From Bacteroidia bacterium (GTDB lineage Bacteria > Bacteroidota > Bacteroidia > Bacteroidales > Prolixibacteraceae), in assembly GCA_026391315.1 (NCBI GenBank), contig JAPLDT010000050.1, forward strand, positions 1-48,486: DNA of 48,486 nucleotides, written 5' to 3'. The position numbers and the translations under genes were made by a program. The notes below the pieces were generated by a model. That model was not told where the DNA came from, did no database searches, and worked only from the letters and a program-made list of their open reading frames with translations. Numbering within the stretch: the first letter of the stretch is position 1; every line of letters begins with the position of its first letter. Below are positions 14,223 to 43,641 of this stretch, in pieces.

Positions 14223-14300
14223 GATATATTATAAGTGTCTGAATTTGAATAGTATGAAGTTATTTATTTGTACCTTGGACAATTAATATTCTTGGAGAAT

Positions 14301-14657
14301 TCACTCTTCCAGGGATGTATAAGGCATTCCCGGTTCGGCAACTCTGTCTAATGAGGATGATGAGGGCAAAGAAAACTCTTCTTTATCGGATTTAGTTGTA
14401 TCTTCCAATGGTTTAAATACGATTACAGGTGCTTTTCCGACAGCCAAAGAAAGTTCGATTAGTTTTTTAAGGGTATAATTGAATTCTCCCTTCATCACTT
14501 GAGATATATATCCTTTAGATACCCCAAGCTGAATGGCCAACTGGGTTTGAGTCATGTTGTTATCCTTCAGGTAGGCGGCAACCTGACGATATATTTCATT
14601 TTGTATGGTTTCAAGCCAATACTCAGGTCGTTTCACTAACTCGGCTTCTTTAAGCAT
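14301..14657 (-). CDS. XRE-family HTH protein
   Basis: 118 residues. A central HTH (about residues 32-70: MTQTQLAIQLGVSKGYISQV) is followed by a helix with KLIELSLAVGKAPVIVFKPLE and a short Ser-rich tail. It resembles stand-alone XRE regulators and solitary antitoxin-like proteins. No toxin gene is next to it: upstream there is a repeat-filled gap and a GxxExxY gene, downstream the enolase-superfamily gene after 78 bp. It may regulate the downstream exported enzymes, but nothing in the sequence proves this. Confidence 0.75.
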   Translation of the reverse strand: MLKEAELVKRPEYWLETIQNEIYRQVAAYLKDNNMTQTQLAIQLGVSKGYISQVMKGEFNYTLKKLIELSLAVGKAPVIVFKPLEDTTKSDKEEFSLPSSSSLDRVAEPGMPYTSLEE

Positions 14658-14769
14658 GGTTTATTGCTATTAGTTGAAGTGCACTGAAAATCTTAAGAAC
14701 CTATTCAATGAATTGTAACAAATATAAGGAAAAAGTTTAGTTGCAACTATACAGCGAAAACAGTCTTAA

Positions 14770-14871
14770 CCACTGATTTTAATGATTTGGATGATTTCAT
14801 TGATACGATTTAATTAGGCTAATCATAATCAAACTTATCACGTTCATCACTAAAATCAATGGTTCAGACCT
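14770..14871. repeat. Palindromic element A built of 9-bp units
   Basis: The left arm has TGAT at 14774, 14783, 14792 and 14801: exact 9-bp steps. The right arm has ATCA at 14828, 14837, 14846 and 14855, again 9-bp steps. The outer ends CCACTGATTT and AAAATCAATGG pair. The right end GGTTCAGACC contains the TGA stop of the GxxExxY gene, so element and gene interlock. Confidence 0.75.
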
Positions 14872-15250
14872 TGTTATTCACTAACCTTTTATACTGCAAG
14901 CTTCTTGCCCCAAAGTTGATCAGTAACCCAACTTCCAGATTGTATGCTTCCAGATAATTGATAGCCTGGGCAAGATGGACATCTTCCAACGCTGTTACCG
15001 CTTTAATCTCAACAGAGATAACTTCTGCTACAAGAAAATCTACTCTTCGGGTACCAATATTGTGGTTTTTATAAAAAATTGGCATTTCATGCTCCCGGCT
15101 GAAACTTAATCCACTGTCAGTCATTTCAAATACGAGGGCCCTTTGATAAATAACTTCCTGAAAACCATTGCCCAAGGCAGAGTGAACACGCATCGCGCAA
15201 CCGATAATTTTTTCGGTAAATGCGGAGTATTTGTATTCTGGTTTAATCAT
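14864..15250 (-). CDS. GxxExxY protein, PD-(D/E)XK fold
   Basis: 128 residues. The family motif is G29-F-Q-E32-V-I-Y35. A PD-(D/E)XK core follows: D71 in RRVDFLVAE, then E81-I-K83 in SVEIKAV. The C terminus ends with LEVGLLINFGARSLQYKRL, as usual for this family. It is common in Bacteroidota and its role is unknown. The start ATG lies 2 bp from palindromic element B and the stop codon lies inside palindromic element A, so the gene is bracketed by these repeats. This suggests it moves with them or acts on them. The frame and catalytic-type residues are intact. Confidence 0.9.
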   Translation of the reverse strand: MIKPEYKYSAFTEKIIGCAMRVHSALGNGFQEVIYQRALVFEMTDSGLSFSREHEMPIFYKNHNIGTRRVDFLVAEVISVEIKAVTALEDVHLAQAINYLEAYNLEVGLLINFGARSLQYKRLVNNKV

Positions 15251-15251
15251 T

Positions 15252-15401
15252 GTCAGACCACTGATTTGGGTGATTAAGGTGATTATTATGATTGGATAGT
15301 GACGTTACTTAAAGATAATCAAAAAAATCATCAAAATCGAATAAACCAGTACTCTAAAAATCATTCAATCATCTTAATCATTTAAATCAGTGGTTCAGAC
15401 C
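15252..15401. repeat. Palindromic element B built of 9-bp units
   Basis: The left arm has TGAT at 15262, 15271, 15280 and 15289 (9-bp steps). The right half has ATCA/ATCG at 15318, 15327 and 15336 and ATCA at 15368, 15377 and 15386. The outer ends GTCAGACCACTGATTT and AAATCAGTGGTTCAGACC pair imperfectly. It lies between the GxxExxY start and the ccoI end, and its right end repeats the end of element A. Confidence 0.75.
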
Positions 15402-15462
15402 GCTGCCAAATGCTCCTCTCTCACCTTTTCAGCCAATGCTTCCAGCTGCACAATACTATATG

Positions 15463-18641: not shown

Positions 18642-18670
18642 ATAATGATCATTTGTTATTTTTTCATTGA

Positions 18671-18784
18671 GTGCCTAAAGTATTTAAAGTGCCTAGAATG
18701 ACTAAAGTTATGGACTCCGAACAAATAATGATTGTGGCGTAAATACTCTAGGCACTTTAGACACTTTAAATACTTTAGGCACTC
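18671..18784. repeat. Palindromic element C built of 9-bp units, inside the cco operon
   Basis: The left arm is GTGCCTAAA, GTATTTAAA, GTGCCTAGA, ATGACTAAA in perfect 9-bp register. The right arm is TACTCTAGG, CACTTTAGA, CACTTTAAA, TACTTTAGG, CACTC. The arms pair, with one extra unit on the right. It fills the gap between fixH and the TauE-like gene and would form a long hairpin in the cco mRNA. Confidence 0.75.
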
Positions 18785-19258: not shown

Positions 19259-19345
19259 CCTTTGTGAACCTTTGTGACCTTGGTGTCTTAGTGGCAGGGA
19301 AAAAATAGCAACAAAGGCACCAAGACACTAAGGTTTCACAAAGTA
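19259..19345. repeat. Palindromic element D built of 9-bp units, inside the cco operon
   Basis: The left arm reads CCTTTGTGAA, CCTTTGTGA, CCTTGGTGT, CTTAGTGGC. The right arm, read in reverse complement, is CTTTGTGAAA, CCTTAGTGT, CTTGGTGCC, TTTGTTGC. The element lies between ccoG and fixH. From memory, sequences of the CCTTTGTGAACCTTTGTG type recur in many Bacteroidota genomes. Confidence 0.7.
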
Positions 19346-25515: not shown

Positions 25516-25556
25516 AGTGAAGCAAAAATAAAAAAAGTTTTGAGACGTCAGCAAAA

Positions 25557-25587
25557 GACCTGAAAGGTTTCGGAAACCTTTCAGGTC
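25557..25587 (-). terminator. Perfect hairpin after the GH3 gene
   Basis: GACCTGAAAGGTTT and AAACCTTTCAGGTC form a perfect 14-bp stem around a 3-nt loop. On the minus strand it lies just after the GH3 stop and is followed by TTTTGC, so it can end that transcript. From memory, this palindrome type (ACCTGAAAGGTTT...) recurs in many Bacteroidota genomes, so it may be both a dispersed repeat and a terminator. Confidence 0.7.
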
Positions 25588-25594
25588 TGCACCC

Positions 25595-43566: not shown

Positions 43567-43641
43567 TAACGTGAGTTCGATGTAAGAAAGGGTGAAATAT
43601 TCCTACATATTTTTACCCTTTCTTACATCGAACTCACGTTA
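43567..43641. repeat. Perfect 27-bp inverted repeat upstream of DUF2264
   Basis: The arms 43567-43593 and 43615-43641 match over all 27 bp (outer TAACGTGAGTTCGATG, inner GAAAGGGT/ACCCTTTC), with a 21-nt loop. It lies between the MFS gene and DUF2264 and could stop or weaken transcription. Its outer end is shared with the repeat at 41212. Confidence 0.92.

Follow-up and report, generated by a model that had tools for sequence, protein, structure and literature searches.

A GxxExxY nuclease-like gene between iterated-unit palindromes, a probable small selfish element

The GxxExxY gene and its palindromes in the window

The window, which is the whole stretch of 48,486 nucleotides (nt) of Bacteroidia bacterium DNA analysed here (assembly GCA_026391315.1, contig JAPLDT010000050.1, family Prolixibacteraceae), carries on its minus strand a gene for a PD-(D/E)XK nuclease-like GxxExxY protein of 128 amino acids (14864..15250; TIGR04256, PF13366) that lies between two palindromes on the same strand, A (14763..14870) and B (15251..15401). 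Read in the direction of the gene, palindrome B (15401 to 15251) comes first, followed by the ATG, the GxxExxY gene, the stop codon and palindrome A (14870 to 14763). Palindrome B is composed of GGTCTGAACCACTGATT, GATT units about 9 nt apart, a loop, AATC units and GGTCTGACA, and its inner end abuts the start codon, while palindrome A is composed of GGTCTGAACCATTGATT, units, a loop and AATCAGTGGTTAAGAC. The stop codon TGA (plus-strand TCA, 14864-14866) belongs to GTCTGAAC, which forms the outer end of palindrome A, and lies within GGTTCAGACC at 14861-14870, the right end of A, as the original prediction had it. The ATG (plus-strand CAT, 15248-15250) abuts TGTCAGACC, the end of palindrome B, with TCTGACA as the inner end directly before it; the predicted closeness of the start codon to B is borne out, and the predicted distance of 2 base pairs hinges on how the end is defined. 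A and B have a common unit and end sequence, also as predicted, with B matching A at 88% over 34 nt in BLASTN. As folded single-stranded DNA, B has a z-score of -3.72 (0/200 shuffles as good) and A one of -2.47 (2/200), which makes A the weaker palindrome, and a nearby coding control has +0.61 (146/200). An apparent open reading frame (ORF) ending at the TGA of B overlaps the ATPase gene in a different frame, and no coding claim is made for it.

The GxxExxY protein is a predicted PD-(D/E)XK nuclease. It scores 138.2 bits against TIGR04256 (cut-off 35) and 132.5 bits against PF13366 (PDDEXK_3; cut-off 22), the sole Pfam family to pass E 0.001, and a model matches nucleases of the PD-(D/E)XK fold. 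Among 78 sequences E32, K83 and Q95 are invariant and D71 and E81 are conserved in at least 90%, which supplies the acidic D, the (D/E)xK and the conserved E and Q of the superfamily. No solved structure is related to the window protein by sequence at E<=1. Matches to the family occur in 120/140 genomes of the window's family, and selection on the protein is strong and purifying. The phage collection holds no match to the window protein; eight plasmid records match it, and of the three examined that of Bacteroides finegoldii has clear arms. On this 24.8-kb plasmid (NZ_OY725952.1, L309) the GxxExxY gene lies between ACCACAGAGGACGCAGAGGACACGGAG and its inverted partner, with radA and the gene of an FAD-dependent protein as neighbours. 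Several other elements (L037, L040, L041, L051, L063 and others) appear to adjoin what we take, labelling by eye, to be type I restriction (HsdS/HsdR) or RhuM-like genes.

Association and co-variation of arms and protein

The association of gene and arms was assessed as the best inverted repeat between the 300 nt upstream and the 300 nt downstream of each gene. The sample is not random, since it draws on 80 loci that are the best 80 of at least 534 confirmed relatives of the window's subfamily and on the top-scoring loci of the family search. Once loci with short flanks are dropped, the 138 unique genes leave 126 for the first correlation below, 124 for enrichment and 111 for the correlation with long flanks; L006, a 462-residue ORF below the cut-off, was also dropped. 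A cross-gene inverted repeat of at least 14 is present at 74/124 GxxExxY genes and at 11 of 646 control ORFs taken at least 1 kb from such genes in those 80 loci, and one of at least 20 at 26/124 and 1/646, respectively. When one gene is counted per homologous context, the proportion at 14 or more is 44/67. The enrichment that the original prediction proposed as its test is therefore found. Local palindromes are a poor discriminator and only the cross-gene repeat separates the two groups, because a self-complementary score of at least 14 is reached by 267/646 controls as well as by 96/124 GxxExxY genes. Scanning for simple hairpins with ungapped stems gave 8 hairpins in 36 loci and so overlooked almost every case, because the gene itself lies between the arms in most loci.

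The arms are arrays of short iterated units closed by short inverted ends. In the flanks of GNGFQEV genes, repeated 5-mers peak at a lag of 9 (409 observed versus 31 in shuffles), with 157 versus 40 at lag 8, and in those of GLLESAY genes they peak at lags 9 and 10 (113 versus 13 and 11 in shuffles); no excess is seen at lag 7 in GxxExxY flanks. The ends differ by subfamily, with GTCTGAAC...GTTCAGAC in that of the window and TTAACCRC... in another, and GNGFQEV arms end in GTCTGAA and TTCAGAC as terminal inverted repeats. A strict search for these ends with a GATT/AATC array gives 46 matches, some nested, in the 80 loci (1.24 Mb), of which 17 have a GxxExxY gene inside them, 25 have one no more than 300 nt away and 4 are gene-less. 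In 9/44 cases an open frame of at least 70 codons takes its in-frame TGA from the left end (654/24,473 for random TGA), and in 12/38 the right end has, no more than 9 nt away, an ATG that opens at least 60 codons (123/3,200 for random positions). In 34/44 the distance between the left end and the end of the upstream gene is at most 30 nt, a count that has no matched control. The excess of left-end TGA and right-end ATG thus indicates that elements tend toward gene junctions, from target choice or from selection.

The unit in the arms co-varies with the protein, as the original prediction had asked of it. Protein distance correlates with the similarity of repeated 6-mers in the flanks at -0.363 (126 genes, 0/500 permutations, omitting 129 pairs with homologous distal flanks), and the 111 genes whose flanks are long give a Mantel correlation of -0.349 within 300 nt (0/200). 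At least three CRCAGA-type units flank 35/35 GLLESAY and 16/83 GNGFQEV genes, with 2/35 and 10/74 in the distal flanks, and at least eight GATT flank 71/83 GNGFQEV and 11/35 GLLESAY genes, with 30/74 and 15/35 distally. In sub-clades drawn post hoc, with the data already seen, CGGATT occurs at least three times in 9/11 versus 3/72 and CGCAGA at least three times in 6/6 versus 3/29, which serves as illustration only. Arm matching within a subfamily is modest, with a gene's own arms giving a better match than the average over the three closest proteins in 52/83 and 20/35 cases. The same dependence is visible inside single genomes, where unit sharing is 0.105 between unlike paralogues of multi-copy genomes (n=21) versus 0.165 for like proteins across genomes (n=105). 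A profile search finds five GxxExxY genes above cut-off in the window's own genome, with flank units of ACACAGAG type (L001), CACAAAT/CACAGAT (L002), TGATT (the window), GGATT-like (L004) and CAGAATT (L005); since the five flanks differ mutually, unit and paralogue vary together within one genome.

The architecture is wider than GxxExxY, since genes of two other families also lie among palindromes. Genes of the S23/four-helix family (TIGR02436) are found in 129/139 genomes and, outside rRNA, between inverted arms of 7-nt units such as GGCAGAA, GTGAGTA, CAAGCTA and GATCAGT (L182-L211, with L183, L192 and L208 as clear cases). Repeated 5-mers in their flanks peak at lag 7 (151 versus 7 in shuffles), with no peak at 9. 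Small GIY-YIG genes (L281-L291, among them L285, L287 and L289) lie among simple palindromes (CTTCGACTCCGCTCAGG/CCTGAGCGGAGTCGAAG, TTCCCGCATTCGCGGGAA, GCCGAAATAAATTCGGC) and are perhaps a third one-gene palindromic family; other GIY-YIG genes adjoin tRNA genes, with the tRNA end partly repeated. Cross-gene repeats of at least 14 are present at 12/27 S23 and 10/28 GIY-YIG genes, after 3/30 and 2/30 short loci, respectively, were dropped. One report (PMC4990558) describes tandem heptamers GACAGAT ahead of the S23 ORF in the Coxiella 23S rRNA intervening sequence (IVS) and cites a pentameric S23 protein from Xanthomonas, and an S23 pentamer could, as an idea, bind one heptamer per subunit.

Traces of movement

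Besides enrichment, the original prediction hinged on some trace of movement, and such traces come from presence and absence of the element at one spacer and from copies lying within broken genes, so that neither of the outcomes named as refuting the prediction was observed. Among ten genomes of genus g2, the spacer between hisB and purU holds gene and arms in four, a short empty spacer in four (G008, G013, G012, G005) and arm remnants only in two (G015, G011). The occupied spacers have CACAGAG units in G014 and G010 and CACAAAGG units with a different protein subfamily in G001 and G022. In other genera the spacer is occupied by a palindrome that lacks the gene (L167), by a palindrome around a truncated gene (L174), by a gene interrupted by an in-frame stop (L166) or by remnants, with 4/30 loci left out as unparsed (L173, L178, L179, L181). 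The pattern is one of presence and absence and carries no direction.

Genome G148 contains two copies (L095, L233) that share 95% identity (441 identities, 22 mismatches, 3 gap columns) as far as their sharp ends; homology starts at ATTGTCAGAACC and stops at GGTTCTGACAA. The coding changes are 19 synonymous and 1 nonsynonymous, and the arms differ by 2 mismatches and a 3-nt gap on the left and by 0/25 mismatches on the right. The copy at L095 interrupts an ORF that has no Pfam match and is intact in relatives, with 564-565 nt gone, and the copy at L233 interrupts a multicopy gene, with about 460-470 nt gone, a relative of which matches PF04754 (Transposase_31) at 25.1 bits (cut-off 21). In both copies (10375-10393 in L095) the GxxExxY frame continues into the right arm, the units of which encode the C-terminal residues IPRNRENR.

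Across genomes, 63/78 protein pairs of at least 80% identity stand in contexts without homologous distal flanks; these pairs were chosen for lacking homologous flanks at 350-1500 nt, so that the limit of homology at 350 nt beyond the gene is a selection artefact and is not used. The gene-less copies that were predicted do occur elsewhere. The pattern CCACAGAGN{2,4}ACAGAG has 77 matches in 60 genomes (1 for the reversed control), and among 30 sampled CACAGAG sites a GxxExxY gene is present within 700 nt at 3, a complementary arm but no gene at 8, and 19 are others, many with visible unit arrays, to which the 4/46 gene-less GTCTGAA elements can be added. Gene-less arms are common for the CACAGAG subfamily and not for the window's unit in its own genome. 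There, in 4.69 Mb, a pattern search for GTCTGAAYCNNNGATT matches only A (14854-14869) and B (15385-15400), with 1 match of the reversed control pattern, and BLASTN of element B finds palindrome A as its sole match and no copies elsewhere. In the congener G029 GTCTGAAYCNNNGATT also abuts a GxxExxY gene (L246), and two more congener matches have no such gene nearby (reversed control, 2 matches across eight genomes). The part of the prediction that took the other palindromes of the window for non-autonomous copies of the B-gene-A element is not supported, because their unit differs and the TGATT unit is nowhere else in the genome by pattern search or BLASTN.

The window locus was dropped as a clean empty-site case. 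In three congeners (L123, L124, L125) the MR_MLE gene comes immediately after the ATPase gene, and the missing segment, approximately 14240..15462 with no strand assigned, is larger than B-gene-A because it includes a helix-turn-helix (HTH) gene at 14301-14657 (PF01381). The HTH gene was possibly co-inserted with the GxxExxY element.

The window holds other palindromes as well. Two strong gene-less ones at 18669-18784 and 19260-19343 lie around the FixH gene and have units of about 9 nt in a sequence unlike A and B, with folding z-scores of -8.31 and -6.10, respectively; the latter is similar to CTTTGTG/CTTAGTG arms of GLLESAY elements and the former has no clear partner. A palindrome with 31-nt arms of 97% identity at 43567-43641 and a perfect one with 16-nt arms at 25556-25588 (AGACCTGAAAGGTTTC) are not of the unit-array kind.

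A selfish palindromic element and its alternatives

The association of gene and arms, the co-variation of unit with protein subfamily and the unit-like dispersal are shown, and the interpretation we favour, with a probability of roughly 0.6, is that the GxxExxY gene and its two palindromes together make up a single copy of a small selfish element whose nuclease acts on its own arms and thereby drives its spread. The unit array that the GxxExxY protein would bind is that of its own element, either in the form of DNA or extruded as a hairpin, and the protein may cut at or near the element ends. The resulting breaks could open new places to the element or allow it to convert sites, often by a stop or start codon, and gene-less palindromes and single arms would be products of its deletion or else non-autonomous copies of it. 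A broader proposal is tentative: GxxExxY elements may constitute a class of bacterial mobile DNA in its own right, found in about a dozen phyla or classes going by record titles, in which the single-domain nuclease recognises an iterated code of 9-10 nt in its own arms, and they may form one set with the S23 (7-nt) and GIY-YIG (simple palindromes) genes in which the family fixes the period and the subfamily fixes the unit. On this proposal many interspersed palindromes in Bacteroidota that lack an explanation would be relics of such elements.

Several observations weigh against a nuclease-driven element. The cross-gene test leaves 50/124 GxxExxY genes below 14, and distal flanks also correlate with the protein, at -0.149 both at 350-650 and at 650-950 nt (each 0/200), so that host background explains part of the co-variation and the excess over it, to -0.349 within 300 nt, is local. 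No clean insertion is seen, because each G148 copy replaces about 460-565 nt of host gene; target-site duplication is not visible at L095 or L233, where target DNA is missing, and the 19 synonymous changes mean that the pair is not newly made. CACAGAG sites occur in 3/12 genomes without a GxxExxY gene versus 18/48 with one, with no clear dependence. Finally, S23, a non-nuclease family, has the same architecture with 7-nt units, so that this architecture does not require a nuclease and something else may move both GxxExxY and S23 elements.

This wider architecture argues for protein-specific repeats and also for an alternative in which the genes are passengers. Here another activity, such as a transposase, replication slippage or hairpin repair, would move the palindromes, GxxExxY, S23 and GIY-YIG genes would ride in the loop, and the protein would bind or protect the arms or regulate itself. 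The S23 genes in like arms of period 7 (12/27), the GIY-YIG genes among different palindromes (10/28) and the 27/30 sampled CACAGAG sites without a gene all fit such a rider, which is nevertheless unlikely because a passive one predicts neither a unit and period that are specific to the protein family and co-vary inside it nor strong purifying selection on the gene. Immobile arms by which GxxExxY would regulate itself or neighbouring genes at the level of DNA or mRNA, like the repeat RNA antitoxins of type III toxins, would suit arms on both sides of a gene within co-oriented gene rows, the closeness of upstream gene ends (34/44 within 30 nt) and the near-identical arms of the G148 pair. The gene with the same arms in unrelated contexts, gene-less arms, presence and absence at hisB-purU and copies within broken genes speak against immobility, and make regulation alone distinctly improbable. 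Least probable, and only a slight chance, is homing, in which a free-standing GxxExxY nuclease would cut an empty site, repair would copy gene and arms into it, and the arms would merely protect or terminate. Repeated occupation of the hisB-purU spacer by two subfamilies and two unit types in one genus is in keeping with homing, as are ends without duplication and a target deletion that fits break repair, but occupied sites vary widely and the arm unit, not the host flank, co-varies with the protein.

The proposed GxxExxY element recalls several known systems. According to PMC3733652, the REP-associated tyrosine transposases (RAYTs) of REPtrons and the genes of TIRtrons, flanked by terminal inverted repeats (TIRs), are likewise small genes between palindromes that are also found alone, with a proposed dedicated nuclease or transposase; RAYTs are HUH tyrosine transposases of the IS200/IS605 type, and the repetitive extragenic palindromes (REPs) are 20-40 base pairs long with a GTAG tag. 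The predicted likeness to RAYTs holds for the architecture, with a gene flanked by palindromes and gene-less copies elsewhere (though not for the window's unit in its own genome), and not for the enzyme, which has the PD-(D/E)XK fold rather than that of an HUH/Y1 transposase. The arms also differ, being arrays of 9-10-nt units that end in GTCTGAAC or TTAACCRC and not tagged palindromes. The GxxExxY element thus works like REP/RAYT and is not one, because the enzyme is unrelated. The S23 IVS is similar in that a long inverted repeat carries a small ORF in its loop, with heptamers in Coxiella (PMC4990558) that fit the 7-nt period of S23 flanks, and differs in protein family, in period (9-10 for GxxExxY) and in site, which is between protein genes for GxxExxY and not in rRNA. 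Miniature inverted-repeat transposable elements and insertion sequences share terminal inverted ends (GTCTGAAC/GTTCAGAC; GTCTGAA...TTCAGAC) and gene-less derivatives, whereas the GxxExxY element has no classical transposase and shows no target-site duplication in the single readable case, where target DNA is missing. From Cas4/RecB-type PD-(D/E)XK nucleases and Holliday-junction resolvases the GxxExxY protein differs as a single 128-residue domain with repeat arms of its own. Searches of an open-access library yielded no description linking GxxExxY with flanking palindromes, subscription papers and preprints lying outside that search.

If the GxxExxY gene and its palindromes are indeed a selfish element, a widespread family annotated only by its motif would gain a function, and a large class of interspersed palindromes would be explained. 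It would also follow that selfish palindromic elements can employ a nuclease whose fold is not HUH. Because unit and protein come in natural pairs, the sequence code is readable, and its specificity could be addressed directly by arm swaps between subfamilies.
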